Positions 1 through 64,000 of a stretch of 64,000 nucleotides of DNA are shown in pieces. The notes under the pieces are model-generated. The model worked only from the letters and a program-made list of their open reading frames with translations, did no database searches and was not told the DNA's origin. Position 1 is the stretch's first letter; every line of letters starts with the position of its first letter. The stretch covers positions 62,001-126,000 of the forward strand of contig NZ_QBKI01000001.1 of NCBI RefSeq assembly GCF_003054055.1. Reading direction: 5' to 3'. The position numbers and the translations under genes are program-made. The stretch comes from Pontibacter mucosus (GTDB taxonomy: Bacteria > Bacteroidota > Bacteroidia > Cytophagales > Hymenobacteraceae).

Positions 1-346
1 TCACAGAGGCGTAACCCAATGCCCTTGCCCTGCTCAGGCCATGCGTTATCAGTTTGCCGCCAATTCCCTGCCGCTGCCGTGCCGGCTTTACGGCCATGGG
101 CGCAAGGGCCAGGCTATCGAACGAGCGTCCGTTTTTATCTGTGATTTTGATTTTGGTGAACAGGATGTGCCCCACTACCTCCTCTCCAGCTACGGCTACC
201 AGCGACAACTCAGGTATAAAGGCATCGCTTTCGCGCAGCAACTCTACCAGCTTCGCCTCGCCTTCCTGCCCAAATGCCGCCTTGTTCAGCTCGTACACCG
301 CCTGGTGATCTGCCGGTTGCTCCTGCCTCATTTCTATCTGACCCAT
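1..346 (-). CDS. GNAT family N-acetyltransferase, N-terminal part (runs off left edge)
   Basis: The minus strand is open from an ATG at 346 to the window edge. The translation begins MGQIEMRQEQPADHQAVYEL and contains a GNAT core: an LVAVAGEEVVGHILF strand pair, then LALAPMAVKPARQRQGIGGK, the acetyl-CoA pyrophosphate loop (R/Q-x-x-G-x-G/A). It resembles YhbS-type acetyltransferases, whose substrates are generally unknown. The ATG at 331 (MRQEQP) is an alternative start. It lies 22 bp after the FUSC gene on the same strand and is probably co-transcribed with it. The C-terminus is outside the window. Confidence 0.8.
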   Translation of the reverse strand, partial: MGQIEMRQEQPADHQAVYELNKAAFGQEGEAKLVELLRESDAFIPELSLVAVAGEEVVGHILFTKIKITDKNGRSFDSLALAPMAVKPARQRQGIGGKLITHGLSRARALGYASV

Positions 347-368
347 TCTGTGCCAAGTATAAAAGCCC

Positions 369-1433
369 CTATTCCATTTCCTTCTTCCGCCGCGCCATTG
401 AAAACCTGGTGGCCCTGATCTGCCGGGTGGCCAGGAAATGGAGCTTTTCGTTGTACAGCACCCAGCCTCCAACGGCGCCCACCATACTTCCAATCAGGAT
501 ATCGAAAAAGCGTGTTTGGATCATGGCCGTCGGGTCGACGGTTAGGGCGGTGCCGGTTTCGGCCAGGAAAATGGTGAGAATGGTGATAAAGACCACTGCA
601 ATAGCGTAGTTGCGCACCACCAGGAACTCCACGATGATCTGCAGCACGATGATGCTGATGCTGATAGCCAGCAGCGAGGGCTGGAGCAGCAGGATGAACC
701 AGGTCAGGACCAGGCCCAGAAAGGTGCCCAGGATGCGCTGGGCGCTCCGCTGCCAGACGTGCGTGGCACTGACGCCCTGCATCACGGCCGCGCAGGAGGT
801 GGGCACCCAGTAGGCTTTCTCCAGTTCTAGCATGTAGGCAATGAGCAGCGAGAACCCGACAAAACTCCCGAAGGTGACCGACTCGATAAAGTTGACATAC
901 TGGTTCTTGGACACCTTGATCACCTCGTCCTGCCCGCGAACCTTCCGCAGCGTAACCAGGCTGTAAACCAGGCCAAGGATACAGGAGATCATGGTGCCGA
1001 TGCCTGCAAGCCCAATCTGGTACGGCGCCGTCTCGAGGTTGAAGGGCATGGAGATGGCCACGGAGGCAATCATGATGAAGAAGAAGTTGCCCGGCGGCCG
1101 CACCATCTTGACGTAGTACAGCACCAGGTGCACGGCAAACGCATACAGCCCCAGCACCACCGAGGCCACCACCGGATGAAACCCGAACAGCACCCCCACC
1201 GCAAAGGAAACCATGATGCCAAACGAGCTGGCCATGAGCACAATCATTCGCCGGGCTATACTTTGCGACTGGATGTAAAGTATAACCAGGGCCGCCATGG
1301 AGGCTATTTTTCCATCCTGCAGGTGATCGGTGTAATACCCCACCAGCACCGGCAGGCCCACGCACACCCCCGCCAAAACGGGCAGGTGCCACTTCCGATC
1401 GGTCTTTCTGAATTCAAAGAGTTCTTTTAGCAT
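369..1433 (-). CDS. FUSC family inner-membrane protein
   Basis: This 354-residue protein has two blocks of hydrophobic helices (roughly residues 17-160 and 180-330) separated by a short charged stretch (LRKVRGQDEVIKVSKNQ). The conserved YWVPTSCAAVMQG segment, followed by a conserved arginine-rich WQRSAQRILGT, is the hallmark of FUSC/YccS/AaeB-like proteins, which include aromatic-acid exporters. The exported substrate cannot be read from sequence. A perfect TAnnTTTG box sits upstream, and a GNAT gene follows 22 bp downstream. Confidence 0.85.
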   Translation of the reverse strand: MLKELFEFRKTDRKWHLPVLAGVCVGLPVLVGYYTDHLQDGKIASMAALVILYIQSQSIARRMIVLMASSFGIMVSFAVGVLFGFHPVVASVVLGLYAFAVHLVLYYVKMVRPPGNFFFIMIASVAISMPFNLETAPYQIGLAGIGTMISCILGLVYSLVTLRKVRGQDEVIKVSKNQYVNFIESVTFGSFVGFSLLIAYMLELEKAYWVPTSCAAVMQGVSATHVWQRSAQRILGTFLGLVLTWFILLLQPSLLAISISIIVLQIIVEFLVVRNYAIAVVFITILTIFLAETGTALTVDPTAMIQTRFFDILIGSMVGAVGGWVLYNEKLHFLATRQIRATRFSMARRKKEME

Positions 1434-1496
1434 CCCTTACAGCCGCCCGTTATAACTGGTGTGACGCCCATCAAAGTATAAACGGAGCCAGCTGCG

Positions 1497-1504
1497 CAAA
1501 TATA
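1497..1504 (-). promoter_or_regulatory. Bacteroidota -7 box (TATATTTG) for the FUSC gene
   Basis: On the minus strand this reads TATATTTG, a perfect match to the Bacteroidota primary-sigma -7 consensus TAnnTTTG. It lies about 64 bp upstream of the FUSC start codon. No convincing -33 TTTG is seen at the usual spacing. Confidence 0.4.
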
Positions 1505-1546
1505 CGGCTGATATTTGGAAACAGGCGACCGGGAATTTACGCAGCG

Positions 1547-2008
1547 CTATACTTCCGGCTTCATGAAATCGAAGGCGCCTTTCCGTAAGTTAACGCCGTA
1601 CTCGAGGTACGCCTTGAGGCAGGCCAGGAAATTCGCCCAGCCTTCGGTGTTGCCTCTCAGCCAGCTGATGCCCGCCTCGTCGTTCTCCATTTCTTTCTCC
1701 GTGATGGTTACCAGCGTGGCGTTTTCGCCTTTTGGCGTCAGGGTCATCTCCACGAGCAGTTCCTGGTCGCCATGGTCCCAGAAATAGGAAACATACTTGT
1801 CTTGCTCTATCCGGCCCACCCTTACCGGGAAACGCTCGTCAAACTCCGGAAACTTCCAGGTCACGGTTTTGCCTGCCTCCATTGGGCCGGAGCTTTCCGA
1901 GATAAAGTAGTTCGACATTTTTGCCGGATCCACGATGGCTTCAAACACTTCGTTGGCAGGTTTTAGCACCTGCAGCGCTGCCTTAACTTCCAGTTTCTGA
2001 TCTTTCAT
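1547..2008 (-). CDS. SRPBCC domain protein (AHSA1-like)
   Basis: This 153-residue soluble protein has the START/SRPBCC fold pattern of the AHSA1 (activator of Hsp90 ATPase homologue) group. It starts VKAALQVLKPANEVFEAIVD, has a central MEAGKTVTWKFPEF/RVGRIEQDKYVSYFW sheet, and ends with TLVTITEKEME and the long C-terminal helix GWANFLACLKAYLEYG. These domains bind hydrophobic ligands or act as small chaperone-like proteins. Bacterial members usually have no known ligand. It looks monocistronic, between FUSC and a lipoprotein gene. Confidence 0.8.
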   Translation of the reverse strand: MKDQKLEVKAALQVLKPANEVFEAIVDPAKMSNYFISESSGPMEAGKTVTWKFPEFDERFPVRVGRIEQDKYVSYFWDHGDQELLVEMTLTPKGENATLVTITEKEMENDEAGISWLRGNTEGWANFLACLKAYLEYGVNLRKGAFDFMKPEV

Positions 2009-2154
2009 GTGATTTTATACTTCCATTGTCCTTCTTCTAAAAATAGGAAAAATAACTTGTGCTGCTCAGGCCATACTTGCAAAAAATGCTGATGTGTGCC
2101 CTGCACCTGTTTTACACTTCCCGACTATCAGGCACGGCCGCTGCCTTGCGCTGC

Positions 2155-2667
2155 CTAAGCGGGGCAAGAGGTGTCAGAAGAACTCTTGATGCAGGCTTTT
2201 ATCGTCACATCAGTCGGGTCGTCTGGCCCAGACACTACGTTGCAGTCGTACATCTCGAAACAATGATCAAACTTCCTGGAGGCGTCTATGGTGAAGTAAA
2301 ACGTCTTATCGAAGGTCTCATCATAACTCACATTTTCCGGCCTGTGACTCAGCAAGATAACGTTTTTATACTCTGTCCCGAGGTAGGTAGAGGTTGTGCC
2401 TGTCTCAACATTAAGCAGCTGCACATAAACACCTGAGGTGCACCCCTTCAAAGCAATTATCCTTCCCTCCAGGCACTTCCCTGCCAGAGCTTTGAGGGGA
2501 TTCGCTGCGCCGTCATCGTCTTTATCGCAGGCGGAAACGGTTGCAGCCAACAGCAAGGGCAGGCAGTAGGACAGGAATCTTCTGAATCTGTACAGCGGGT
2601 TAAATTTTCTTCCGGCAAAGCGGAGCGGGCCAGTGGCCTTGGTTCTTGGGGAGGTGAGCTGCTTCAT
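2155..2667 (-). CDS. Putative cysteine-rich lipoprotein, function unknown
   Basis: This 170-residue protein has an unusually long basic N-terminus, then a hydrophobic stretch ending LLLAATVSAC with a lipobox Cys near residue 47, followed by an acidic DKDDD that suits outer-membrane sorting. The mature part carries six further Cys (GKCLEG, KGCTS, DHCFEMYDCN, ACIKSS, TSCPA), which suggests disulfides outside the cytoplasm. I do not recognise a family. The true start may lie inside the long leader, but no other in-frame ATG precedes the signal helix. Confidence 0.6.
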   Translation of the reverse strand: MKQLTSPRTKATGPLRFAGRKFNPLYRFRRFLSYCLPLLLAATVSACDKDDDGAANPLKALAGKCLEGRIIALKGCTSGVYVQLLNVETGTTSTYLGTEYKNVILLSHRPENVSYDETFDKTFYFTIDASRKFDHCFEMYDCNVVSGPDDPTDVTIKACIKSSSDTSCPA

Positions 2668-2805
2668 ATAAATTAGTTTTTATAAGGGTTGTTAGATTAA
2701 AGACATAGTAAGAATGCAGACCTCCTCCCCCTATACTTACCTCCCTCCAGTCTGGCATATAGGATGGTACGGGCAGTATTTAAGCGCCCGCACCAAGCTC
2801 AGGTA

Positions 2806-3231
2806 TTACTTCTCCACTACTTCCAGAGCCGGGTTCACCGCCAGCAGATCTGCGATAAAGGCATCTTTGTCTTGCGGGGCCAGGTAGATTTCGTCGAAGC
2901 GGTTATACTTCAGCACCAGGCCGCCCCTGGCAAGCGCAGGCTTTATCCCCACCCACATGGTTTTCCCGTTGATAACTTTGCTGATCTTCCGGATATCAAT
3001 TGTCCCTTTCAGGAAAGCGGATTTATACTTTAGCTGGCCATTTTCGATGATGTAATAGGTATCAACGTATAGCCACAGGAACAGCGCCAGCGGAGCGGCG
3101 AGGGGCAGCAGCAGAAAAGGCTTTTCGGAGAAGGTGGCGCTATCGGCAAAGTACAGGACAACCGGAAGTAGAAAAGCTCCTGCCAGCATAGCATGTATAA
3201 AGGTATCTTTTTTGGGGGCGTAGGTTTTCAT
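2806..3231 (-). CDS. Membrane-anchored PH-like domain protein
   Basis: This 141-residue protein has two hydrophobic helices near the N-terminus (about residues 13-30 and 38-56). They are followed by a bacterial PH-like beta module: YYIIENGQLKYKSAFLKGTI, IRKISKVINGKTMW and the C-terminal helix KDAFIADLLAVNPALEV. This layout matches the bPH_6/YdbT-like family of unknown function. The typical motif of a DIRKI strand followed by NGK is present. It appears monocistronic. Confidence 0.65.
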   Translation of the reverse strand: MKTYAPKKDTFIHAMLAGAFLLPVVLYFADSATFSEKPFLLLPLAAPLALFLWLYVDTYYIIENGQLKYKSAFLKGTIDIRKISKVINGKTMWVGIKPALARGGLVLKYNRFDEIYLAPQDKDAFIADLLAVNPALEVVEK

Positions 3232-3691
3232 AGGGTGTAATTTGGCAGTTATACTTTATGTTGTTGTTACTGAGCCACAACTGATTATACTTTTAACTAT
3301 CAGCGTGCTGTTTTCCATACTTCAGTAGCCATTGCTTCCTTTCCAAACCGCTGCCATAGCCGGTTAGCGTTGCGAGGGTCAGTCCGGATTGCCGCTCTGT
3401 TCTACATGTAAGATGTGCAACAACCTGTGAATGATAGGCGTGAAAAACACGGCGGTGATACTTAAAAATGCCACGCCACTGTACAAGGCATAAAAAGATG
3501 AAAATATTTTGGCAAGGCAACGGTATTACTATTTCCCTGCGGTTTTCCAGTTTCATTTCTGTAGGAGTTCTTTCACCTGTTTTTCTAGGTGGTCAGCTAT
3601 ACTTCTTGTTGTTCAGAGATTTTGTGCTGATTGGCCGCTAGTATGCGTTAGCCTAGCTTCTGGCGATATTTTGTTGCCCTGCCAACAGAGC
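3232..3691. other. Long intergenic stretch with a decayed membrane-gene tail
   Basis: No intact gene is supported here. It holds three copies of the TATACTT word and, on the minus strand, a short open segment that looks like the C-terminus of a membrane protein (see the separate entry). The open frame at 3293-3556 on the minus strand lacks protein-like composition and a good start site. Confidence 0.5.
3379..3525 (-). pseudogene. Possible remnant of a membrane protein C-terminus
   Basis: A 48-codon stretch ends in TGA at 3379-3381 and reads through FYALYSGVAFLSITAVFF and TPIIHRLLHILHVEQSG. A hydrophobic helix followed by a His/Arg-rich amphipathic tail is protein-like and reminiscent of the ends of small bacterial membrane proteins. 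Upstream in this frame there is a stop, while a coiled-coil-like tail (DHLEKQVKELLQK) ends in another frame just before. This suggests a frameshifted, decaying gene. The parent family is not identified. Confidence 0.3.
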
Positions 3692-4138
3692 TCAACAGCT
3701 CAGTTCCCGGCACTCCTGCTCCAATACCCCATCAATAATTTCCGGCGGCGTGCCCCATCTTGAAATGGTTCTGTCTAAGAGAACTGGCAGAGCCGAACTG
3801 TACCCACCGATCTCTCCTGTCGTCATGCCGACAACTAGCAATGCCAGCTTATGATGCCGGATGACATAGGAACACATGATACAAGGTTCATGGGTCGTCA
3901 CCAGGAAGCAGTTGGACAAGTCAGCTGTTCCCAACCTGGCCGTTGCGTTTCGTACTGCTTCTATTTCGGCGTGGAAAGTAATATCCCGGTGCGTTTTACC
4001 CCCTTCTATGCCTTCGGCAACAACCTGTCCATCTTTGACAATGACAGACCCTACCGGACTGTCGCCCCGGAGCTTTGCTATTGTTGCAAGTTCGATACAC
4101 CTTCGCATCCAACCTTCATATTTCTCAGTGTCTGTCAT
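3692..4138 (-). CDS. Nucleoside deaminase (cytidine/deoxycytidylate deaminase fold)
   Basis: This 148-residue enzyme carries the zinc-dependent deaminase signature. HAEIEAVR (His zinc ligand and catalytic Glu) is followed about 30 residues later by TTHEPCIMCSYVI (PCxxC, the two Cys ligands). It deaminates a nucleobase, nucleoside or cytosine-like substrate in the cytoplasm. The relation to TadA and guanine deaminase is evident but the exact substrate is not. Its C-terminus lacks the motifs that mark tRNA-specific TadA, so a free-base or nucleotide substrate is a reasonable guess. Confidence 0.8.
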   Translation of the reverse strand: MTDTEKYEGWMRRCIELATIAKLRGDSPVGSVIVKDGQVVAEGIEGGKTHRDITFHAEIEAVRNATARLGTADLSNCFLVTTHEPCIMCSYVIRHHKLALLVVGMTTGEIGGYSSALPVLLDRTISRWGTPPEIIDGVLEQECRELSC

Positions 4139-4312
4139 AATGCATACTGCCTGCTATAAAGTGATTTGGTAGAGATAGAATCGAGATAGATATACAAAAG
4201 TTCTTGGCTTCAGAAGGGGTGGCCTCTTAAAAAGGTAGGTCTCTTTACAATATGCGTTAACAGGTGGTACAAGCTGTGGATGAGGCGCAGCTTTAAAGGC
4301 CTACTAAGTAGA

Positions 4313-5278
4313 TTATAAAAGCGCCTCTATTTGTGCTACTATATCCTTCCCGCTACTGGGCCTGTTGGCATCGAAGGAAACAAACTCGCCACTCTTACCT
4401 ACAAGCAGGTAGCGTGGATAAGCAACGGTGGTACTGTTTTTCTGATTTTCCAGGATGGAAGACCAGACTTGCTCTTCTAACTGCTTATTCATGTAGATAT
4501 GCCAGCCCTGAAGGTTATATTTTTGGATGGCGTTTTTCCAACGCTGCTTACTGTTCGGGTGGCTGGTCTCCCGTGCCAAATACAGGTATGCGACTTCCTT
4601 TCCCTTCAGTTGTACTTTTAAATCAGCTAAGTGCTGGAATTCCTGTATACAGGGACCGCAGGAACTATACCACAAGTCAACATATACTACCTTGTTGCGG
4701 AATTGCGGAAGCTGCACAATGTCATTTAAACTATCGTGCTCCTTATCAATAAATAGTGTCTCCTGGTCCCCGCTATAGCTTAAGTCTATTAGATAGTTGA
4801 TAAAAAAGGCTGCCCCTGTGATAAAAAGCACTGCGATGAAGGAGAAGGTGACTTTCTTTAAAATGATGAATTTCCGATGAAGAATCAGCTGCTTTATACC
4901 TGAATAGATTAAGCTAAAAACCAAGGCAACTACTAACAGGGGTAAGGTTTCCTTTATAATGGTAGGATGTAGTAAATGAGACAGCAAGAACTCAGTTCCA
5001 TAAACCTCAGCCATCCAGGAGGCATACAAAAAAGCCGACGCGCAATAGGTGATTAAAAGAAGGGCAAGATTCAGCAACAGGACGCGCTTTGTTCGTCCTT
5101 GGCCAAGATGAGGAAGCAAGTAATACAGATTCCCAAAGAATATAAGGCCCATGCCTATAAATAAGCATGAAGTATAGAGCAGCATAAAAAGGGACTTCTC
5201 ATCTGTTTTAATAACAATAAAGAATCCCAGCAGCATATATATAATGCCAAATACTACCAGGTCAATGTTTTTTTTCAT
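4313..5278 (-). CDS. Membrane-anchored thioredoxin-like (TlpA-type) protein
   Basis: This 321-residue protein has several N-terminal membrane helices within about residues 8-165. A thioredoxin-like domain follows with VVYVDLWYSSCGPCIQEF, in which CGPC is the redox-active pair. Such proteins reduce or isomerise disulfides on the outer face of the membrane. A cis-Pro candidate lies in VAYPRYLLVG. The gene is noticeably more AT-rich than its neighbours, which may indicate transfer. It is transcribed alone, and a TATACTT-type inverted pair lies upstream. Confidence 0.75.
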   Translation of the reverse strand: MKKNIDLVVFGIIYMLLGFFIVIKTDEKSLFMLLYTSCLFIGMGLIFFGNLYYLLPHLGQGRTKRVLLLNLALLLITYCASAFLYASWMAEVYGTEFLLSHLLHPTIIKETLPLLVVALVFSLIYSGIKQLILHRKFIILKKVTFSFIAVLFITGAAFFINYLIDLSYSGDQETLFIDKEHDSLNDIVQLPQFRNKVVYVDLWYSSCGPCIQEFQHLADLKVQLKGKEVAYLYLARETSHPNSKQRWKNAIQKYNLQGWHIYMNKQLEEQVWSSILENQKNSTTVAYPRYLLVGKSGEFVSFDANRPSSGKDIVAQIEALL

Positions 5279-5340
5279 GGCTGGAGGAGGAGTGTTTCAT
5301 GTGCTTTTTCGCTTTTGTTCGATTTATCCACTACAACTAG

Positions 5341-5371: not shown

Positions 5372-5485
5372 ACCAAATCCGGCACCTAAACAGAACTGGA
5401 CCATCGAATATACTATATAGCAACGATAATATAAAGAATTAAAGAAGCTATTCTCCGATAACCTTAGTAAAATAGATAAGCAGCT

Positions 5486-11503: not shown

Positions 11504-12469
11504 CTAAAACCGTAACAGCAGCTGTTGCCGCGCCTGCTTCAGCAGCCGGAGCGGTAGCGGCAGGTGGTTGTACTTTAACGTGTAAAATGGCACCGGCACC
11601 GGCCCGAAGCTTTGGTAAAAGCCGGCTATACTTTCTATCATGGGGCTTTCAAAGTCCAGGATCTGCGGGGTGTTGGCGTTGCGTTGGATGAGGTCGTCGA
11701 GAAGTAGGGTACGGCCATTGCTTTTCCGCCCGCTGCTGTCGGCTGCGTTGAAGATGTAGGTGATGTAGCCGCCATAGTATAAAAACAGCGCGCCCGCAGT
11801 GGTGCTTCCGTCTTCCGATAAAGTATAAAGCAGCTCGGCTATCCCCTTTTCCACACAGGATGTGTATAACTGGCGCAGCGTGTCGTAGGCCGCCTCATCC
11901 ACCCCGCCGTATACTTTGTGCGCAATGTTCTGCCGGAACAGGCCGATGAGCGGCTCGATGTCGTGACTGTGGGTGATGCGCAGCTTTTCGCGGCGGGCTT
12001 TGTTGAGGTTATACTTGCGATCGCGGTTGTAGCCTTTCCAAAGCTGCTCGTATGGCTTGTTCAAATCCAGGTACAAAGTATAAACCCGCTGTAGTTCTTC
12101 CTGTTTTACACTTTGGAGGGAAGCGGAATTGCCGGTGCAGAACGCGTAGCCCGACGTATACTTGAAGTGCTGCTGCACCAGCGCCAGAAACGCCTCCGCC
12201 TGCGCCGGCCTCAGCTCCTGCCGCGCATAGATGCCCAGCTGCTGGCAGAAGAGCGGCTGCTGCAAGTATAAAATGCCATACTTGCGGCGCACCGGCAGCG
12301 GCATTATGCAAGTATAAACTCCCCCCTCCTGCTCCACCACCGCATGCCATCCCGGCGACACCACATCCAGGTACCACGAGAGCGCATACACCTGCCGCTG
12401 GCTGGACGCTTCCACACAGGCATCCCAGGCGGCTTTATTGATTTGGTTATGCTGGAGTAAATGCACCAC
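11504..12469 (-). CDS. FemAB/BioF2-like GNAT acyltransferase, paralogue 1
   Basis: This 321-residue protein has the double-GNAT layout of FemAB-like/Acetyltransf_6 enzymes. The landmarks are VYALSWYLDVVSPGWHAVVE, the central YNRDRKYNLNKARREKLRI, GALFLYYGGYITYIFNAADS and the conserved LDFESPMIESIAGFYQSFG. The related gene directly upstream shares all of these. Members transfer amino-acyl or acyl groups, but the substrate here is unknown. The gene contains eight copies of the AAGTATA/TATACTT word, unusually dense. It probably forms a two-gene operon with the next gene (11-bp gap). Confidence 0.8.
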   Translation of the reverse strand: MVHLLQHNQINKAAWDACVEASSQRQVYALSWYLDVVSPGWHAVVEQEGGVYTCIMPLPVRRKYGILYLQQPLFCQQLGIYARQELRPAQAEAFLALVQQHFKYTSGYAFCTGNSASLQSVKQEELQRVYTLYLDLNKPYEQLWKGYNRDRKYNLNKARREKLRITHSHDIEPLIGLFRQNIAHKVYGGVDEAAYDTLRQLYTSCVEKGIAELLYTLSEDGSTTAGALFLYYGGYITYIFNAADSSGRKSNGRTLLLDDLIQRNANTPQILDFESPMIESIAGFYQSFGPVPVPFYTLKYNHLPLPLRLLKQARQQLLLRF

Positions 12470-12480
12470 AAGTATAGATT

Positions 12481-13473
12481 TTATACTTCCTCGGCCACGC
12501 CGGAGGCGAAGAAGGTGCGGTATACTTTCATCCGCAGGTTGCGGATGATTTTGACGTAGAGCGGCAGCGCGTTGTGGCGCAGAGCAAAGTACTTGACCCG
12601 GTGCGCCCCGAAACTGGCGTAGAAATGCTCAATCTGCTCAATCATTGGGCTTTCAAAATCCAGGGTATACCCGGTGCCCGCGTGCTGCCGGATGATCTCA
12701 TCGAGCACCAGGGTACGGCCATTCGCCACGCGCCCCTCCTCATCGGCGGAGTTAAAGGCGTAGCTGATAACATTGTTATACTTGAAGAACAGGCAGCCGG
12801 CGTTCACTTCGCCGCCGGAGGTAGTATAGATCAGCTGCGCCACACCCCGCTCCTGCATCACCCGGAACAAATCGCGCAGCATTTGGTAGGTGCTCTCGGC
12901 CACACCGCCCACCACCTTGTGCTCGATGTGCTTTTTAAAGTGCTCGATCAGCGGCTCGATGTCGTCGCTCTCGAACATACTCAGGTTAGCCCGCTGCGCC
13001 CGCTTCAGGTTCATCTTACGGTCGCGGGTGTAGTTCTTGTAGAGCTCGGGGTAAGGCTTGTCGAGCTTCAGGTAGCGGGTGTAGCGGGCCACTAGGTCAT
13101 ACTTTTCCTGCAGCTGCTCCAGGCTGGCGGTGTCGCTTTTGTTAAACCTATAGCTGTGGATAAACTTATAGCGCCCGGTGGCCAGCTCCAGCATTTTCTC
13201 GCGCACACCGGGGCAGCTTTGGCCGGTGGTAAAGATTCCCAGCTGGTGCGTGTGGTAGGGTTGGCTCAGGTACGGGAAACCCATTTTCTGGGTGCCTGGC
13301 AGTGGCACCACCGTGACATACTCCCCGGCCTGCTCCTCCACCAATGCCTGCCAGCCCGGCGCCACCACATCCAGAAACCACGACAGGGCATACACCATGT
13401 TATCGGCAGAGGCCGTGATGCAGGCGTCCCATTTGGTTTTGTCTATCTGCTCGTGGCGGAGGTACCTTATCAT
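12481..13473 (-). CDS. FemAB/BioF2-like GNAT acyltransferase, paralogue 2
   Basis: I prefer the start at 13473 (MIRYLRHEQIDKTKWDACI), which aligns with the first residues of the neighbouring paralogue. An upstream ATG at 13524 would add 17 residues of poor composition. The same landmarks as paralogue 1 appear: VYALSWFLDVVAPGWQALVE, YTRDRKMNLKRAQRANLSMF, INAxx-type strand CLFFKYNNVISYAFNSADEE and LDFESPMIEQIEHFYASFG. It lies upstream of paralogue 1 on the same strand, so they are probably a tandem duplication. The acyl acceptor is unknown. Confidence 0.8.
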   Translation of the reverse strand: MIRYLRHEQIDKTKWDACITASADNMVYALSWFLDVVAPGWQALVEEQAGEYVTVVPLPGTQKMGFPYLSQPYHTHQLGIFTTGQSCPGVREKMLELATGRYKFIHSYRFNKSDTASLEQLQEKYDLVARYTRYLKLDKPYPELYKNYTRDRKMNLKRAQRANLSMFESDDIEPLIEHFKKHIEHKVVGGVAESTYQMLRDLFRVMQERGVAQLIYTTSGGEVNAGCLFFKYNNVISYAFNSADEEGRVANGRTLVLDEIIRQHAGTGYTLDFESPMIEQIEHFYASFGAHRVKYFALRHNALPLYVKIIRNLRMKVYRTFFASGVAEEV

Positions 13474-18761: not shown

Positions 18762-18819
18762 AGGATCATAGGCTATAAGGGAGTCTATACTTTATACTTC
18801 TTTTCCGGCCCTTCCTGGC

Positions 18820-19450
18820 GCAAGTCTCCAGACTTGTGTCCCGCTATGGTGTCGGGTCTCTGACTCAACTGGCTTAAAAAGCCAGGCTTTATACTTTGGC
18901 TATACTTTTATACTTGAGCTATACTAGCTGGTTTATACTTTCGCTGGCGCGAGCTTGCAGCCCGTGTCTTTGTACACTCGCTATATTTCCATAGCTGCTG
19001 CTTTCTGCAACTGGACACAAGCTATCCTTACTAGCCACTGTTCATCCTATAGTTCCCACAGGCGTATAGTTTCATCTCTAGCTTTGGTGCCCTCCTAGGC
19101 CGGGAGGCCTCGCCTTCGGGCTTCGCGCGGTGTTCCCTCCTTGCCTCGCTCGCGCTCGGCATGCCCTTGGCGGGCACCGGATCTCACAAGGCGCTCAACC
19201 CAAAGGCTGGGAATCATTCGATAGCTACGGCTATTGCTATGCAACAGGTACCAACTGTCCCCTAGAGGGGACCACAGGGGTGTAATCACCTGCTGAGTTT
19301 ATACTTTGCACGGACAGCAGCGACGAAGCTTATACTTCAGCAGCAGTAACCACAGGCTCCCCGCCTTGGCTAAGGAGGGGCAAGGGGTGGTTGGACCCGG
19401 TACTGCAAAGCTCCCTCCCCTGTTCTTAGGGGAGGGCTGGGGTGGGGTTT
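18820..19450 (+). repeat. Dispersed modular repeat, copy 1
   Basis: This is one of four related intergenic elements in the window, at about 18.8, 32.0, 48.4 and 58.8 kb, all in the same orientation. Modules in order: a GC-rich hairpin-like part (GGCGCGAGCTTGCAGCC); CATAGC-GCTTTCTGCAACTGG; the highly conserved block from GTGCCCTCCTAGGCCGGGAG through CTTGCCTCGCTCGCGCTCGG to GGCGCTCAACCCAAAGGCTG; a GTCCCC-TTGAGG module (shortened here); and the CTCCCCGCC-AAGGAGGGG / GGTGGTTGG module. It fills the space between two convergent genes. No conserved protein is encoded. Confidence 0.8.
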
Positions 19451-25014: not shown

Positions 25015-27918
<2,904 letters not shown>

Positions 27919-27945
27919 GAGGCGTTTATACTTCAGTCTTATACT

Positions 27946-27982
27946 TAAAAAGCCCGCTGCCATGAATGGCAGCGGGCTTTTA
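27946..27982. terminator. Bidirectional terminator between uvrA and DUF4142
   Basis: A stem of about 14 bp (AAAAGCCCGCTGCCA and complement) has A-run before and T-run after, so it can end both converging transcripts. TATACTT copies flank it on both sides. Confidence 0.85.
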
Positions 27983-27987
27983 TACTT

Positions 27988-33518: not shown

Positions 33519-34961
33519 TTAAAGCTCCTTACGTAAACGGGCCACGGGAATGTTCAGCTGCTCCCTGTACTTGGCCACGGTGCGGCGGGCGATGTTATAG
33601 CCTTTCTCGTTCAGCAGTTTCTCTATCTTCTCGTCGGAGAGCGGCTTGCGCTTGTTCTCGTTGTCGATGATCTCTTTGAGGATGTGCTTTACCTCGCGGC
33701 TGCTGGCATCCTCGCCGGAGTCGGTGGCGATGCCCTCGGAGAAAAAGTACTTGAGCGGGTAAATGCCAAACTCGGTCTGCACGGCCTTGCTGTTGGCCAC
33801 GCGGCTCACGGTACTGATGTCCATCCCGATTTCCTCGGCAATGTCCTTCAGGATCATCGGGCGCAACATGCTTTCGTCCCCTTCCAGGAAGAAGTCGTGC
33901 TGGTACTTGATGATGGCCTCCATGGTGCGCAGCAGCGTGTTCTGGCGCTGGCGGATGGCGTCGATGAACCACTTGGCCGCGTCGAGCTTCTGCTTCACAA
34001 AAGCCACGGTCTCCTTCAGCTTCTTGTCCTTCTTGTCCGACTTGTCATAGGCATCGAACATGTCGGCGTAGGAGCGGCTGATGCGCAGGTCCGGGGCGTT
34101 GCGGGAGTTAAGGGAGAGCTCCAACTGGCCGTTGTTGTTGGTAAGTATAAAATCGGGGATAATGTACTGCACCCGTGCTATTCCCGCGCCTGCGCCGCCC
34201 GGCTTCGGGTTGAGGCGGGTAATCACATCAATGGCCTTCTTCAGATCCTCCTCCGACACATTAAACTTGCTCTGTATCTTCTGGTAGTGCTTCTTGGTGA
34301 ACTCATCAAAGGCCTGCCGGATGATGCGTTCGGCCAGCACGGTGGTAGCGTCCTGCTCGCGGCGCTCCAGCTGCAGCAGCAGGCATTCGGGCAAATCGCG
34401 GGCGGCAATACCGGCCGGGTCGAAGGTCTGGATCAGGTGCAGCACCTGCTCTATCTCCTCCTCCGTGGTGTCGATGTTCTGGGAAAAAGCCAGGTCGTTG
34501 GCAATGGAGCTCAGCTCGCGGCGGATGTAGCCGTCGTTGTCAATGCTTCCGATCAGCTGCATGCCGATGGAGTATTGCTTGTCGTCGAGGTCCAGGAAAC
34601 CGAGCTGGTCCAGCAGCGAGTCGGTGAGGGTGGTAGCCATGGCAATGGGCATCTCCCGGTCTTCCTCGTCTTCCCCACCGCGGTCGCCCTGCATTTTGTA
34701 GCCGCTTATCTCGTCGTCGTTCAGGTAGTCGTTCAGGTCGATTTCGTCGTCCTTGCCGTAGTCCTCCTCGTAATCGTCTGAGGAGTCGCTATACTCCTCG
34801 GCAGGCTCCTCGCGCCCCTCTTCCAGGGCCGGGTTTACCTCCAGCTCCTCTTTTATGCGCATCTCCAACTCAGCAGTAGGTATCTGCAGCAGCTTGATAA
34901 ATTGTATCTGCTGCGGCGATAGCTTCTGGGATAAAAGTTGTCTTAAATCGAGTCGCTGCAT
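33519..34961 (-). CDS. rpoN: RNA polymerase sigma-54 factor
   Basis: This 480-residue protein has the N-terminal activator-responsive region (LRQLLSQKLSPQQIQFIKLL), an acidic linker (EEYSDSSDDYEEDYGKDDE), the core-binding domain and the DNA-binding part: helix-turn-helix MDISTVSRVANSKAVQTEFG and RpoN box ARRTVAKYREQLNIP. It directs transcription from -24/-12 promoters with bacterial enhancer-binding proteins. Its own promoter has a perfect sigma-A type box. Confidence 0.97.
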   Translation of the reverse strand: MQRLDLRQLLSQKLSPQQIQFIKLLQIPTAELEMRIKEELEVNPALEEGREEPAEEYSDSSDDYEEDYGKDDEIDLNDYLNDDEISGYKMQGDRGGEDEEDREMPIAMATTLTDSLLDQLGFLDLDDKQYSIGMQLIGSIDNDGYIRRELSSIANDLAFSQNIDTTEEEIEQVLHLIQTFDPAGIAARDLPECLLLQLERREQDATTVLAERIIRQAFDEFTKKHYQKIQSKFNVSEEDLKKAIDVITRLNPKPGGAGAGIARVQYIIPDFILTNNNGQLELSLNSRNAPDLRISRSYADMFDAYDKSDKKDKKLKETVAFVKQKLDAAKWFIDAIRQRQNTLLRTMEAIIKYQHDFFLEGDESMLRPMILKDIAEEIGMDISTVSRVANSKAVQTEFGIYPLKYFFSEGIATDSGEDASSREVKHILKEIIDNENKRKPLSDEKIEKLLNEKGYNIARRTVAKYREQLNIPVARLRKEL

Positions 34962-54350: not shown

Positions 54351-54526
54351 AGGCTCCACTTAACACTCATGGTATTTGCCAGCCGGACAGGCTTCTTCCT
54401 GGCCCCAAAATGCCTTTGGTAAATGCGCAGCTGGGCCTGCAGAAAGGAAGTATACTTTGGCGGCTGGCCTGCAACATTTCCCGGTAATTCGGCTATACTT
54501 GGTAAGGAGAAGCTCTGTAACCCACC

Positions 54527-58686: not shown

Positions 58687-58835
58687 GCGAATTGGTTAGT
58701 TTAAGTTTAGCTCCCCTAATTTAGGGGATTAATGTGGTTTAGCCATGGTTTGGCGTTAAAACTGTGTTGTTCCGTAGGTGGGATATGTGTTAGGTATACT
58801 TTATACTTGCTGCTATACTTATACTTTTATACTTA

Positions 58836-59400
58836 CCTGGCGCAAGCGTCCGCTTGTGCCTTTTAGTGGCCGACCCTTTCCCCGCTGGCGCGGGTTTGTA
58901 ACCCGTGTTTAACTATGATGTTGGATTTGTAATCCAACTGGCTCGCATAGCCATACTTATACTTTAGCTATACTTCCATAGCCTTCGCTTCCTTCCATTT
59001 GGGCCAAGCTATCCTTGCTAGCTGCCGTTCATTCTCTAGTTCCCACAAACGGCTCGTTTCATTTCTGGCTTTGGTGCCCTCCCAGGCCGGGAGGCCTCGT
59101 TTTCCTGCTCGGCGCTGTGTTCCCTCCTTGCCTCGCTCGCGCTCGGCATGCCCTTACCGGGCACCGGATCTCACAAGGCGCTCAACCCAAAGGCTGGGAA
59201 GCAGTTCGATAGCTACGGCCTTTGCTATGGAACGAATACAGACTGTCCCCTTGAGGACAAGCGAGAACGAGAGTTCGAAGCTTGCGAGCAAAGCTCAACA
59301 GGGGTGTATAAAACAGTAGCTATAGTACTTATACTTTGCAAGCAGCAAAAGTAAGCCCCCCGCCTTAGACGAGGAGGGGTAGGGGTGGTTGGATTTCGTA
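58836..59400 (+). repeat. Dispersed modular repeat, copy 4
   Basis: Same orientation and module order: GGCGCAAGCGTCCGCTTGTG, GCGCGGGTTTGTAACCCGTG, CATAGCCTTCGCTTCC, GTGCCCTCCCAGGCCGGGAG, TTGCCTCGCTCGCGCTCGGC, GGCGCTCAACCCAAAGGCTG, GTCCCCTTGAGGACAAGCGA with GCTTGCGAGCAAAGCTC, and CCCCGCCTTAGACGAGGAGG. Compensatory variation in the hairpin-like first words suggests RNA or cruciform structure. It lies between two minus-strand genes. Confidence 0.82.
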
Positions 59401-59542
59401 GCCCGTAGCTTTGGCTTCACCTCCCTTCCCACAAGATCCTTTCAGGATGACAGTGAAAATAATAGGCATGAATCTCCTCCTCTTAAGCGATAGGGGTGGT
59501 TGGAACCAGGGCTCCAGAAATGCACCAGTTAAACCGGCCTGC

Positions 59543-59588
59543 CAAAAACAGCAGCGGCAGCACATGATCGGTGCTGCCGCTGCTGTTA
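59543..59588 (-). terminator. Terminator of the FadL-like gene
   Basis: A perfect 17-bp stem (AACAGCAGCGGCAGCAC and complement) is followed on the minus strand by TTTTTGG, 20 bp past the stop. Confidence 0.85.
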
Positions 59589-59607
59589 TACTGTATACGT
59601 TTATACT

Positions 59608-61149
59608 TTAGAAGTTCACGCCCATGGTCACTACCACGGAGTTCTGCTTTTTGTTGATGTTCATCAGGGGCTCGTTTGTGGTTTTCAGGGAGTATGGCGA
59701 GTAAGACGTGCCGCTCACGAAGGGGGCGTAGTCGATGTCCTGCTGCGTATGCACGTAGGCTGCATCCAGGAAGAAGTTTTTCAGCCTGATGCCGGCACCG
59801 GCGGTATAGTGATGCGCTGCGCCATACTTGTAGTTGATAAAGCCGGCGTCGTAGCTGGAGCCATTATCCGGGTCGGCGTTGAAGGCGTAACCAGCACGAA
59901 GCCTGAACACCTCAAAGCGTCCCTCTGCCCCTATCCTGTAGTTTATAGCGGACTCGTTGTTGCTGGCAATGCCATCGTTGATGTCGTCGAAGAAGCCGCC
60001 TGAGGAGAAGTCGTCGTCTTCTCTATACTTGGCTTTGCTGTAGTTCACAAACTCAACATCCGCCGTAATAAAGCCATACTTACCCAGGAAGTACGCAATA
60101 CCTCCGTTTGCCCTGAAAGGCGTCACCAGCCGGTAAGAGAACTGGCCAGGCACTTCCGCGGCTGTCTCCACACCATCGTTAAACGTGGTCGTGATGCGGC
60201 GCTGGTAATCATCGTCAAACGTATAAGCGGTTGGCGTTTGTATACTCAGGCCTAGGCGTAGGGCGTCCGTCGGACGGGCAATCAAACCTAATTTCAAGTT
60301 TACGCCAGCCCCGGAAGTAGAGAACTCATCCACGTACTGAAAGCTTGTAAAAGGTGTACTTGCGTCGCCCTCCGCTTCTGAATAAATATTTTCCTGCGAG
60401 AAATCCACCGTCACGATGCCAAGGGAGGCCCCGATGTAAAGCTTATCCTTGTAGTTGGTACCCACACCAATATCGATCTGGCTCTGAGAACCCTTGCGGA
60501 TGATTTCTTCGCGCTGGGTTATACTTCCGATGCGATCTACCTCGAATATCTCATCATCCTCTGTTACATCAAAAAGGAAACCTCCATAGGCTAGTCCCTC
60601 CAAGGTGCTGATGCCGGCATCATATTCCTGGTCGAGGCTGGCGCGGGTTCGGTTGTTCTCAAAAGCAAGGTCAGCAAAGTACTCTACCAGTGTGGGGTCG
60701 AACTCCCCGGTTTGGGTGCGGTAGGAAGTATAGCGCTCGTTAAAGTTGTTGAGCCTGGTAAAGCCTATCCCGAAGGTAACGCCGCGCCAGTCGCTGCCTT
60801 CATTGTCGCCTTTTCTGTTGGAGATAACCACGCCCAGTTGCGGGAACACGAAATTGCTGTTGCTGCCGGTGTTACGCTCGCCAAGTATAGAGGTGTTGGT
60901 GTTCACCGACTGCACCCCCGGCGTTACGGTAAACTCGGAGCGGCGGAACATGCCCAGGCCTGCCGGGTTGCCTGAAAGGCTGGAGATATCAGCGCCCAGT
61001 GCGGTTTGCGTGCCGCCCATGCCTTGTATACGCGCAGTACCGGAAACGCCCATCTGGGAGTAGCGCAGTGCGTCAAGCTCCGTTTGGGCAAAGGCAGTAC
61101 CACCCCAGCCCAGCACGAGCGCCAGGCTGGCCAATAGTGTCTTCTTCAT
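59608..61149 (-). CDS. OmpP1/FadL-type outer-membrane protein
   Basis: I start at ATG 61149 (MKKTLLASLALVLGWGGTAF), which gives a signal peptide; the start at 61206 precedes it with 19 odd residues. The mature N-terminus has the FadL hatch-like pattern SGTARIQGMGGTQTALGADI followed by SSLSGNPAGLGMFRRSEF. The rest is a large beta barrel ending VVVTMGVNF. It may transport hydrophobic compounds across the outer membrane. It is the second gene of an operon with the lipoprotein upstream (25 bp). Confidence 0.88.
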   Translation of the reverse strand: MKKTLLASLALVLGWGGTAFAQTELDALRYSQMGVSGTARIQGMGGTQTALGADISSLSGNPAGLGMFRRSEFTVTPGVQSVNTNTSILGERNTGSNSNFVFPQLGVVISNRKGDNEGSDWRGVTFGIGFTRLNNFNERYTSYRTQTGEFDPTLVEYFADLAFENNRTRASLDQEYDAGISTLEGLAYGGFLFDVTEDDEIFEVDRIGSITQREEIIRKGSQSQIDIGVGTNYKDKLYIGASLGIVTVDFSQENIYSEAEGDASTPFTSFQYVDEFSTSGAGVNLKLGLIARPTDALRLGLSIQTPTAYTFDDDYQRRITTTFNDGVETAAEVPGQFSYRLVTPFRANGGIAYFLGKYGFITADVEFVNYSKAKYREDDDFSSGGFFDDINDGIASNNESAINYRIGAEGRFEVFRLRAGYAFNADPDNGSSYDAGFINYKYGAAHHYTAGAGIRLKNFFLDAAYVHTQQDIDYAPFVSGTSYSPYSLKTTNEPLMNINKKQNSVVVTMGVNF

Positions 61150-61174
61150 GATGATTTGGTTTCTAACGATGCGT

Positions 61175-62458
61175 CTAGTTATTTCCGCGGGTTGGACGTC
61201 CGCCACCTCCGGATGAGGACGAGCTACCGCTGCTTCGGTTCATACTTGGACTTGAGCTGGGACTAGAGCTCGGACGGCTCTCAAAAGTACTGCGGCTTGG
61301 CGAGCTTTCGTAGGTGCGCGCCGGGCGGCTTTCCTGCGTGCGGCTCGGGCTGCTTTCTATCCTGCGGGTAGGCTGGCTGCGCTCAATCGTACGGCTTGGC
61401 TGGCGCTCTGTGGTGCGCGGACGCACTTCGCGGCGCTGCTGCGGCTGTTCTGTACTTCGGCTAGGCACGTACTCGCGGGTTGTGCGCGTGCTGCGGCTGT
61501 TGCTTGGCGCCGGCTGCACAACGTTTTGCTCCTGCGAACGCACGGTGCTTCTGCTGCTGCGGCTTGGCCTTGTCGGCAGTTCCTGCTTGCCTCCGGTAGC
61601 CGGGGCCACCGTGCTGCGGCTGCTGCGCGACTGGCGGCCTACGCTTTGCTGCCCGGTGCTCTCGGTGCGGATCACGCCGTCTCTGGACTGCCTGCCGGTG
61701 GTGGTGCCAACGGTCTGGGTGTTGCGGCTGTCGCGCGGGCCATACTGCACCCTGCTGGCCTTACCAACAACTACTGGCCTGTCAGAATACCAGCCGTAGC
61801 CGTACGGGTTGCCATGGGCGTAGTAGCCGTTGTAGAAGCCTCTGTAATAGCCGTTATAGTAGCCGTGCCCGTAGCTGTTAGGCCACCAGTTGCTGTAGCC
61901 ATAGTATGGGTGGCCGTAGAAGCGGTTGCCCCATCCACCGCCCCAGCCATAGCTAAAGCTGATGCTCACGCCTGTACGGAAGCGGGCATTGTGCCAGAAC
62001 GGATCATAGTAGAAGGGGTCGTAGTAAAACGGGTCATAGAATGGGTCGTAGAACGCATAGCTGGTACGGCGCGGCACGTAAGCTGAGCCCCAGTAGGGGT
62101 CTACATACGAGTAGTTAGGGCGGTACCAGTTGTCGCGCTCATCGTAGCTGCGGCCATCGTAGTACTCATCTCCATTATAGTTTTGGGTAATGTTGCTCTC
62201 AGAGTACTCCGGGTTAAGTACCTCGCCTTCGGCCAACGCTTGTTCCTGCTGCTGGCTACTGCTGTTGTCGTATTGCTGGTAGGCCTGCGCCGGCTGCTGT
62301 TGCGGCTGCTGCGCCTGCGGCTGTGCATACACGGTCTGGTCTGAAGAGCTGTAATACATGTCATCGTACTCCGACGACTGTAATGCAACGGGGCTGCTAC
62401 AGCCTACAGCCAGCAGGGCAAGCACAGGGGCTACGGTAAGTAAAGTATATTTTTTCAT
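61175..62458 (-). CDS. Low-complexity lipoprotein with Tyr/Gly and Arg/Ser repeats
   Basis: This 427-residue protein has a lipobox ending LLAVGC (Cys20). A Gln-rich linker follows, then a Tyr/Phe/Asp/Pro repeat (FYDPFYDPFYYDPFYYDPF), a Gly/Tyr/Trp/His-rich part (YYNGYYRGFYNGYYAHGNPY) and a long Arg/Ser/Thr/Pro/Gln tail (PSRSSRSTVRSQEQNVVQPA) ending SGGGGRPTRGNN. No family is recognised; the protein is largely disordered and may be an outer-surface or adhesive polymer-like lipoprotein. It leads the operon with the FadL-like gene. Confidence 0.7.
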   Translation of the reverse strand: MKKYTLLTVAPVLALLAVGCSSPVALQSSEYDDMYYSSSDQTVYAQPQAQQPQQQPAQAYQQYDNSSSQQQEQALAEGEVLNPEYSESNITQNYNGDEYYDGRSYDERDNWYRPNYSYVDPYWGSAYVPRRTSYAFYDPFYDPFYYDPFYYDPFWHNARFRTGVSISFSYGWGGGWGNRFYGHPYYGYSNWWPNSYGHGYYNGYYRGFYNGYYAHGNPYGYGWYSDRPVVVGKASRVQYGPRDSRNTQTVGTTTGRQSRDGVIRTESTGQQSVGRQSRSSRSTVAPATGGKQELPTRPSRSSRSTVRSQEQNVVQPAPSNSRSTRTTREYVPSRSTEQPQQRREVRPRTTERQPSRTIERSQPTRRIESSPSRTQESRPARTYESSPSRSTFESRPSSSPSSSPSMNRSSGSSSSSGGGGRPTRGNN

Positions 62459-62500
62459 GGCCTTCTGCTGATGTTCTGTGGGTAATAACTCCTTCTATAC

Positions 62501-62508
62501 CAAAGATA
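62501..62508 (-). promoter_or_regulatory. -7 box (TATCTTTG) for the lipoprotein/FadL operon
   Basis: A perfect TAnnTTTG match on the minus strand about 43 bp before the lipoprotein ATG. A TTTG word (62521-62524) is nearby at shorter than usual spacing. Confidence 0.45.
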
Positions 62509-62653
62509 AGCACAATTGCCCAAATCCTTGCCTATAGTATAATATTATTAACGTAATTTTGAGGCGGAACGATGTCCGGTTTTATATATTGTAATTAGCA
62601 AAATCTGTTCCAAGAAATTTATACATCAAATAACCAAGTTAAATAAAAGTAAA

Positions 62654-64000
62654 ATGAGCAAAGGGTTACCTAAAAGAAGCGAAGACTACTCCTTGTGGTA
62701 CAACGAGCTGGTGAAGAAGGCTGGCCTGGCCGAGAACTCCGCAGTGCGCGGCTGTATGGTGATTAAGCCGTACGGGTACGCCATCTGGGAGAAGATGCAG
62801 CGCCAGCTGGACGACATGTTTAAGGCCACCGGCCACGAAAACGCCTACTTCCCGCTGTTTGTGCCCAAGAGCCTGTTCGAGGCCGAGGAGCAGAACGCCG
62901 AGGGCTTTGCCAAAGAGTGCGCCGTGGTAACCCATTACCGCCTGCAGAACGACCCGGACAAGCCCGGCAAACTCCGCGTGGACCCTAATGCTAAACTGGA
63001 AGAGGAACTGATTGTTCGGCCTACCTCCGAGGCCGTTATCTGGAACACCTACAAAGGTTGGATTCAGAGCTACCGCGACCTGCCTATTCTGGTAAACCAG
63101 TGGGCTAACGTGGTGCGCTGGGAGATGCGCACGCGTCTGTTCCTGCGCACGGCCGAGTTCCTGTGGCAGGAAGGCCACACGGCCCACGCCACCGCCGAGG
63201 AGGCCATTGCCGAAGCCGAGCAGATGCTGGAAGTATACGCCACCTTTGCCGAGCAGTACATTGCCCTGCCGGTGGTGCGCGGCGTGAAGACGCCAAGCGA
63301 ACGCTTTGCCGGCGCCCTGGACACTTATTGCATCGAGGGGCTGATGCAGGATGGCAAGGCATTGCAGGCGGGTACCTCGCACTTCCTGGGCCAGAACTTT
63401 GCCAAGGCCTTTGATGTGAAGTTCGCTACCAAGGATGGCGGTCTGGAGCACGTTTGGGGCACGTCCTGGGGCGTGAGCACGCGCCTGATGGGGGCGCTGG
63501 TGATGGCCCACTCCGACGACGAAGGCCTGGTGCTGCCTCCAAAGCTGGCCCCTATCCAGGTGGTGATTGTGCCGATCTACAAAGGCGAGGAGCAACTGGC
63601 CCAAATCACCGAAAAGGTGAACCAACTGAAGCGCGAACTGCTGGCCAAAGGCATCAGCGTGAAGTACGACGACCGCGACACCGAGCGCCCTGGCTTTAAG
63701 TTTGCCGAGTGGGAGCTGAAGGGTGTACCGGTGCGCCTGGCCATCGGTGCCCGCGACCTGGAGAACGGCACCGCCGAGGTGGCCCGCCGCGACACCAAGG
63801 AGAAGAGCTCGCAACAGTTCGACAGCCTGGCCAGCTACATCCCGGCCCTGCTAGACGAGATTCAGGAAAACATTTACAACAAGGCCCTGGCTTACCGCGA
63901 GGAGCATACCACCAAGGTGGATACCTACGAGGAGTTTAAGGAGGTGCTGGAAACGAAAGGCGGCTTTGTGTTGGCCCACTGGGACGGCACCGCTGAAACA
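62654..64000 (+). CDS. proS: Proline--tRNA ligase, 5' part (runs off right edge)
   Basis: ATG 62654 opens a frame that stays open for 449 codons to the window end. It begins [20 protein letters not shown] and has class II motifs: [40 protein letters not shown] (motif 2) and [20 protein letters not shown] (motif 3), then the anticodon domain [18 protein letters not shown]. This is the eukaryote/archaeon-like short ProS without the bacterial editing insertion. The C-terminal zinc-binding-like domain is outside the window. Confidence 0.96.

Follow-up and report, generated by a model that had tools for sequence, protein, structure and literature searches.

Why should a single heptamer, TATACTT with its complement AAGTATA, recur so densely on both strands of a bacterial genome? 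The question is raised by a stretch of 64,000 nucleotides of Pontibacter mucosus (positions 62001-126000 of contig 1, in a genome of 5.23 Mb and 23 contigs), hereafter called the window, in which a sequence-only reading had reported the word to be over-represented. The excess is real and larger than had been claimed: 167 copies are spread over the full window (1..64000, both strands), vs a mean of 4.6 and a maximum of 13 in 100 dinucleotide shuffles, and 11,818 copies have been counted in the genome. The explanation favored here, to which we give a probability of roughly 0.55, is that TATACTT serves as a self-DNA uptake word, similar to the DNA uptake sequence (DUS) of the Neisseriaceae but independent of pili. 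The word works like a DUS, or like the uptake signal sequence (USS) of the Pasteurellaceae, in its genome statistics, although it is neither of the two by membership, and it is from these statistics that we infer the step from word to uptake. This explanation fits best because the word has clade-bound dialects and mixed genomes, is maintained in place, is scarce in the sampled plasmid and islands, is symmetric between strands and shows signs of decay in one genome with ruined competence genes. An uptake word had been among the suggestions of the sequence-only reading, and these results, together with the lack of replication polarity, speak for it; what does not fit is the type IV pilus, whose ATPase has not been found in 50 Pontibacter genomes, and therefore the mechanism would not be that of Neisseria or Haemophilus as known. 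A fuller proposal falls a little short of even odds: sequence-specific uptake without type IV pili through a novel kind of receptor, in a system whose target word would have changed at least twice and which would have been lost at least once in the genus, which would make it the first uptake-word system of the Bacteroidota, with self-recognition in transformation invented there independently.

Abundance and placement of the word

Both strands contribute equally to the genome-wide count (5907 + 5911), and the reversed word reaches 333 copies (164 + 169). Under a second-order Markov model, the observed-to-expected ratio is 17.9 for the window and, with 2832 copies observed vs 154 expected, 18.4 for 1.1 Mb of contigs 1 and 2. 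For the same 1.1 Mb, base composition predicts 97 copies and distant words of the same letters 174, that is, a 29-fold and a 16-fold excess. A ratio near 1 under a model of second or higher order, or an excess confined to the window, had been named as grounds for giving up the claim; the second-order ratio and the genome-wide excess are far from either. Only a maximal-order model gives a ratio of about 1.1 (147.7 copies expected vs 167 observed in the window), because the word inflates its own sub-words, and this figure does not refute the enrichment. The earlier hand count of about 20 copies in the first 9.6 kb was close to the 21 that start there, and the sequence, which had been called GC-rich, has a merely moderate guanine-plus-cytosine (GC) content of 53.5% in the window. 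As for the extended consensus, T or C is preferred before the word in the window, A is almost absent from this position, T is preferred after the word, and preferences are small beyond three bases from it, giving a fuller form of roughly [TC]TATACTT[T]. In the 1.1 Mb, CATACTT is a second, weaker form (7.3-fold), and the remaining 20 of the 21 single-mismatch neighbors stand at 0.56- to 2.5-fold.

The relation of the word to genes has been followed in the same 1.1 Mb with a simple gene caller of our own, not the annotation (850 genes), and with repeats masked by self-BLAST. The word lies both inside and outside genes, as had been noted, but at unequal densities, 1.64/kb in genes and 5.15/kb between them. 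The further claim of both orientations and all reading frames is borne out, since the two strands are equal genome-wide and all phases are used in genes; on contig 1, 452 words run in the same direction as the gene and 536 in the opposite one. In fact, 566 of 3203 ATA codons (17.7%) and 285 of 1442 AGT codons (19.8%) lie inside a word. Moreover, AAGTATA overlaps 92 of the 850 stop codons in three registers (44, 25, and 23), and words are enriched directly after stop codons. A codon-pair habit, another of the early suggestions, can be discarded because the word occupies both strands and all frames and is three-fold denser between genes.

A strand bias relative to replication, which had been proposed as a check, is not found beyond what base composition gives, and control words behave alike. 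On contig 1, cut at 290 kb, word orientation is 0.59 vs 0.56 for controls before the cut and 0.43 vs 0.46 after it; on contig 2 it is 0.50 vs 0.48, the controls being same-letter words throughout. Across the complete chromosome of a congener (G129), 20 samples give a tally of 165/186 where the skew is positive and of 160/137 where it is negative. Word orientation did seem to switch, together with the GC skew, at about 300 kb of contig 1, but this pattern was rejected as a signal, since same-letter control words match it. This symmetry bears on Chi sites, which are short, non-palindromic and over-represented, as is TATACTT, a 7-mer of the size of Chi. A Chi-like word would stop the AddAB nuclease and start recombination, with its dialects set by AddAB; an AddB-type protein of about 1000 amino acids (aa) with a PDDEXK_1 domain is indeed encoded in 50 of 50 Pontibacter genomes. 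Such a function is nevertheless quite improbable: the word differs from Chi in having no replication polarity beyond that of same-letter control words, an excess (16- to 35-fold, depending on the yardstick) far above that of Chi, and dialects that change fast. Wordless genomes encode the AddB-type protein just as the others do, and it was rejected as a discriminating factor.

Dialects and maintenance in place

The word is not spelled alike throughout the genus. Its dialects were first found around the sigma-54 gene rpoN (33519..34961, minus strand, with one word at 34143-34149), whose protein is 99% identical to its counterpart in Pontibacter chinhatensis. A blind 7-mer search of each named rpoN locus (80 of the 116 relatives found) showed that other Pontibacter loci use TATACCT or TATAGTT, one of them both TATAGTT and TATACTT. 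With the reversed word as yardstick and a cut-off of 8-fold, 39 of the 50 Pontibacter genomes carry a word in one of three dialects that differ by one or two letters: TATACTT in 21, TATACCT in 12, TATAGTT in 4, and both TATACTT and TATAGTT in 2 (G018 and G033); 3 genomes are intermediate and 8 have none. Strand asymmetry does not exceed 4% in any of the 41 word-genome combinations at or above 8-fold. The intermediate genomes (G075, G115, and G131) hold remnants of dialect words in mixture, with maxima of 3.9- to 5.7-fold, and are possibly in dialect transition or decay.

Dialect and descent agree on the rpoN tree, which has 39 rows. The TATACCT species fall into a single clade of 12 members (support 99/97), the TATAGTT species are placed next to TATACTT ones, along with mixed intermediates, and four wordless species stand near the base, in a fork that the tree does not resolve. 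Pontibacter silvestris is sister to Pontibacter vulgaris (99/96), with 7 vs 60 words per 20 kb around rpoN; genome-wide, 1769 copies in 5.2 Mb vs 10,614 in 4.2 Mb make them about seven-fold apart per Mb, and the unequal counts of such sisters therefore speak for word loss. Outside the genus, TATACTT exceeds 2.5-fold in none of 150 genomes from other genera of the family Hymenobacteraceae, and TATASYT exceeds 2.2-fold in none of 285 genomes from other genera of the order, the family included.

A weaker signal comes from an Ohtaekwangia-like group (G446-G449; Ohtaekwangia koreensis L098, and L096, L089, and L088), in which TATACTT stands at 2.8- to 3.4-fold genome-wide and the pooled loci over-represent TATAGTC, TATACTC, and CTATAG words. 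This is possibly a weak TATA-word system in another branch of the Cytophagales, related or independent.

Respelling might be the work of an enzyme. In a scheme like that of the highly iterated palindromes (HIPs), a matching methyltransferase together with a repair step would create and keep the word, and enzyme exchange would make the dialects. Passages of PMC4390886 describe HIPs as palindromic and matched by methyltransferases, including the alternates of cyanobacterial HIP1. Like HIP1, the Pontibacter word is short, extremely frequent and replaced by other words in some lineages; unlike HIP1, it is not palindromic, and PF01555, the sole methyltransferase family searched, does not track it. 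This family is present in 31 of the 50 genomes and missing from 19, among them the word-rich G064, G117, G079, G123, G058, G083, and G099, and it was therefore rejected as partner of the word, so that PF01555 lends no support to the earlier suggestion of a methylation target. In addition, none of the single-mismatch neighbors is emptied, as conversion would do, and a Vsr-like conversion was dropped on this account. We hold a HIP-like origin to be distinctly unlikely.

The dialect spellings replace each other at the same sites. In a hand tally of aligned loci, where sites recur across species and hence are not independent, the single-mismatch states of the TATACTT sites of the window are TATACCT in 66 of 89 cases among 12 TATACCT loci and in 7 of 48 among 13 TATACTT loci. 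Species pairs of one dialect, some of which have a species in common, retain the word at orthologous sites more often than same-letter control words, by a factor of 1.3 to 2.3 over all three dialects. For TATACTT, retention is 0.830 (n = 94) vs 0.655 (464) for controls at 92.8% identity, 0.528 (n = 409) vs 0.374 (2572) at 83.1%, and 0.514 (n = 436) vs 0.256 (3073) at 78.9%. For TATACCT, it is 0.794 (n = 388) vs 0.492 (2948) at 89.8% and 0.654 (n = 526) vs 0.285 (4278) at 83.8%; and for TATAGTT, 0.558 (n = 129) vs 0.302 (681) at 82.0%. Three-taxon comparisons give losses of 19/126 vs 132/557 in controls for TATACTT and of 63/358 vs 410/1445 for TATACCT, with gains of 4/136 vs 104/7177 and 5/232 vs 425/31,223, respectively. 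As a control, the gain ratio in species of another dialect is 1.0 for TATACTT (6/495) and 1.1 for TATACCT (4/259). Insertion of the word as a block was rejected, because lost and gained words show a spectrum of changes that broadly resembles the one seen at control words; in the closest species pair, gaps and double changes seem commoner, in a sample of 16 changed words only. An ordinary mutational or codon-usage habit without function would agree with a gain rate that is raised merely mildly. It is contradicted, unless the controls were badly chosen, by retention above same-letter words in three dialects, and also by an enrichment that is higher between genes than within them and by the distance between the sisters P. 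silvestris and P. vulgaris; it is thus highly improbable.

Foreign DNA holds few copies: the conjugative plasmid, the other second replicons and the islands that were sampled are poor in the word. In samples of 20-40 kb, compared with averages from whole-genome counts or a chromosome sample, second replicons carry 0.30/kb vs 1.62/kb on the chromosome sample (G129), 0.28/kb vs 0.82/kb (G073), 0.20/kb vs 1.27/kb (G052), and 0.45/kb in a genome that is itself low, about 0.38/kb (G075). The first of these is a conjugative plasmid, because it bears genes for a relaxase, TraG, TraM, ArdC, and ParA; the genes viewed on the second replicons of G073 and G052 do not prove plasmid identity. In 20-kb samples of the P. 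mucosus assembly itself, contigs 13, 16, and 17 have 0.35-0.45/kb vs 1.9-3.9/kb on contigs 10-12, 14, 15, 18, and 19, and contig 20 (5 kb) has one copy, while contigs 21 and 22 contain no readable bases. Contig 16 (G000:C16, L213), poor both in GC (0.386) and in words, encodes a surface-polysaccharide cluster and is likely an acquired island; the word-poor contig 17 carries GH3 and TonB-plug genes, and contig 13 accessory genes. Finally, the poorest 10-kb stretch of the 1.1 Mb holds 2 copies at a GC content of 0.41, vs a mean of 25.9.

Competence genes and the case for uptake

Preferential uptake would require a machine. Word-bearing fragments would be taken up preferentially by a DNA receptor at the surface or in the periplasm, as part of a transformation machine that works without pili; this machine might be of the Riemerella type, with ComEC, a ComEA-like helix-hairpin-helix (HhH) protein and further outer-membrane parts. 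Recombination of word-bearing fragments would raise word numbers and weed out losses, a change of receptor would give rise to a new dialect, and loss of competence would leave the word to decay. The search for ComEC, ComEA, and a type IV pilus, proposed at the outset, had a divided outcome. ComEC is encoded in all 50 Pontibacter genomes, with a stop inside it in G046 and G089, and an HhH (HHH_3) protein of 304-346 aa has an open frame in 49 of the 50, being broken in G089; the copy of G085 has three HHH_3 stretches and scores above the cut-off of TIGR00426 (ComEA HhH repeats). On the other hand, no pilus ATPase was found among the 50 genomes with PF00437 (type II/IV secretion ATPase), the one pilus family searched, whose matches are weak and lie in the Walker region. 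Three of the 50 genomes rise just above the cut-off (best 25.9 vs 24.9 bits), and the best match was rejected as a pilus ATPase since the protein is a superfamily-1 helicase.

One genome, G089, amounts to a natural knockout: its comEC and comEA-like genes are ruined, and it shows signs of word decay. The two broken genes lie at 2077758-2078650 and 2770500-2772600 of this complete genome (G089:C1). The HhH gene is split over three frames, its stops falling at query residues 62, 63, and 196, and comEC over two, its stops (residues 26 and 491) lying beyond the stretch where the two frames overlap. That both are multiply broken suggests that they act in one pathway. The share of long open reading frames (ORFs) is 0.61, vs 0.58-0.67 in other TATACTT sets, so that the breaks do not simply reflect an indel-ridden assembly. 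The word excess of G089, 8.8-fold, is the lowest of the 21 TATACTT genomes (11.7-38.5 in the others). A decay index, defined as the excess of one-letter neighbors relative to exact words with dialect variants excluded (bootstrap ranges in parentheses), is 0.71 (0.52-0.87) in G089, vs 0.20 (0.15-0.24) in P. mucosus, 0.38 (0.27-0.50) in G129, 0.16 (0.09-0.25) in G087, and 0.18 (0.11-0.25) in twelve TATACTT loci. Low GC alone (0.47 in G089) does not explain the value, because five TATACTT loci of GC 0.46-0.47 together give 0.15. For a word that is not kept, high values are expected, and the abandoned TATACTT of the TATAGTT genome G085 reaches 1.38 (without bootstrap); low-word loci, with about 20 copies each, reach 1.4-1.8.

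Much of the above would also follow if an abundant nucleoid or chromosome-structuring protein bound the word across the core genome, changes of its recognition surface making the dialects. High density on both strands, greater density between genes, conservation in place, and scarcity in the sampled plasmid and islands would all agree with such a chromosome-organising word. Its spacing does not: there is no regular interval, gaps between words outside masked repeats being clustered (coefficient of variation 1.28), and short spacings are partly due to a repeat family. A protein of this kind would presumably change slowly, yet the genus has seen two or more respellings of the word and one or more losses, and nothing in this explanation would make the word decay where comEC and the comEA-like gene are ruined. 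We regard it as unlikely.

Several observations weigh against uptake as the function of the word. Three-taxon losses of TATAGTT are not lowered (3/10 vs 10/44 in controls), its gains are 0/14 vs 4/629, and the pooled gain rate of TATACTT and TATACCT is raised only about 1.8-fold (9/368 vs 529/38,400), an excess so small that it is insufficient alone to hold the standing 16-fold excess at equilibrium. Normal-length ComEC and HhH frames are kept in the low-word genomes G097, G131, G013, and G113 and in the wordless G002, G028, G109, G125, and G127, so that the two proteins alone do not decide the state of the word. Moreover, G046 has a stop inside ComEC yet a 27-fold word, the word density of G073 is low (0.82/kb) and yet its ComEC and HhH frames are open and normal in length, and the natural knockout is a single genome. 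No receptor for the word was found, DUF5689 was not detected in the P. mucosus genome at the sensitivity used, and the open-access matches listed contain no uptake experiment for Pontibacter. Nor is the word described in these matches, which covered the words themselves, uptake and competence in Pontibacter, and uptake words in the Bacteroidota; one Pontibacter genome paper mentions competence and uptake in other contexts (PMC4460873).

Among known systems, uptake words have been described from two families of Proteobacteria, both pilus users. The USS of the Pasteurellaceae is dispersed, strand-symmetric and tied to competence, with pilus-based uptake; the Pontibacter word is likewise dispersed and strand-symmetric, but its flank preferences are short. 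In the Neisseriaceae, DUSs often stand as inverted pairs that form terminators. No excess of such terminator-like pairs is seen in Pontibacter, where pairs on opposite strands show no enrichment over the 1.1 Mb save for 41 overlapping palindromes; the word is also shorter than a DUS (7-9 bp vs 10-12) and AT-rich. A ComP-type route is not expected, because no type IV pilus ATPase was found in the genus. As to likenesses, both words exist in thousands of dispersed copies, genic and intergenic, on both strands, have clade-coherent dialects a few letters apart with mixed-dialect genomes, and accompany ComEC, and the Pontibacter word is rare in the sampled plasmid and islands, as with DUS and USS. 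For the Neisseriaceae, passages of PMC3630211 report clade-coherent dialects that differ by single letters, and two dialects in nearly equal numbers in the genome of Simonsiella muelleri.

For the machine, the comparison is with Riemerella, in which, according to passages of PMC8459023, no pilus homologues were found and which is nevertheless transformable, a process needing ComEC, DprA, ComF, RecA, and HhH, DUF5689, barrel, and DUF1343 proteins. Pontibacter resembles it in belonging to the Bacteroidota and in having ComEC, an HhH protein and no detected pilus ATPase, and its HhH protein is a candidate counterpart of RA0C_RS02645. It differs in its dialect word and in the missing DUF5689, a family that was rejected as receptor because it occurs in 22 of the 50 genomes without tracking the word and is not found in the genome of the window. 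At five DUF5689 loci, two neighbors are SusD-like, a third appears so by eye, one has no Pfam match and one locus has no neighbor. Riemerella columbina is reported to prefer its own DNA, and Table 3 of the same source lists for Riemerella and Flavobacterium johnsoniae A/T-rich k-mers alone, about 2- to 8-fold over base composition (PMC7965970). The same source gives PilB and PilT homologues for F. johnsoniae (PMC7965970), and therefore the Bacteroidota as a whole are not pilus-free.

If the uptake explanation is true, Pontibacter would be a third, unrelated case of an uptake word, in a genus without a detectable pilus motor, and self-recognition in bacterial sex would have evolved more than once. 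The word would then be a marker for transformation in environmental bacteria, and the genus, with its three dialects, its mixed genomes, its cases of loss and its natural knockout, would offer a testbed for the origin and switching of such words. Even with another function, the word demands explanation, being 16- to 35-fold enriched across the genome, divided into dialects and conserved in place.

Local arrangements and other repeated words

Several places in the window show how the copies are set. An ORF of 321 aa on the minus strand (11504..12469) contains exactly the eight words that had been counted by hand, four per strand, starting at 11627, 11821, 11910, 12010, 12076, 12157, 12264, and 12310. 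Directly beside it, an inverted pair (12470..12488; 12470-12476 on the minus strand and 12482-12488 on the plus strand) joins two minus-strand ORFs. Six same-strand words cluster at 18786..18940 (plus) between ORFs of at least 150 aa, and three lie directly 3' of the stop codon of uvrA (25015-27918), at 27927..27987 (plus). Another array, of five words with spacings of 7, 12, 6, and 8 bp, stands between ORFs at 58795..58834 (plus). At 54448..54457, two overlapping words form the 10-bp palindrome AAGTATACTT, one of the 41 in the 1.1 Mb (minus-plus spacing 3: 31 + 10).

Same-strand close spacings of 7, 8, 11, and 14 bp are preferred in the 1.1 Mb. The hypothesis of tandem arrays was rejected for these spacings, which are partly due to a family of dispersed repeats in intergenic DNA: of 154 such pairs, 63 have a hit of the family no more than 250 bp away (11/55 at 7 bp, 14/34 at 8, 24/42 at 11, and 14/23 at 14). 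Members of this family, for example C1:226311 and C2:62845 on contigs 1 and 2 of the P. mucosus genome, exceed 300 bp and have hairpins such as GCGGGTTTGCAACCCGTGCC, with up to six words; there are 28 pattern hits in the 1.1 Mb, two of them doubles of a neighbor. By impression, the family looks like repetitive extragenic palindromes or miniature inverted-repeat transposable elements (REP/MITE-like), and it may carry words as passengers.

Other words are also repeated. In the window, a second and weaker over-represented set centers on GTCGTCG, CTACGAC, and TTGTCG, at up to about 8-fold for 7 bp under the second-order model, and similar words occur in some other Pontibacter loci. Finally, the locus of Rufibacter ruber (L056) has 35 copies of CTGTTTT in 21 kb (6.9 expected), often paired about 11 bp apart, which are probably a repeat family and possibly another word; L057, L058, and L095 have 10-13 copies.

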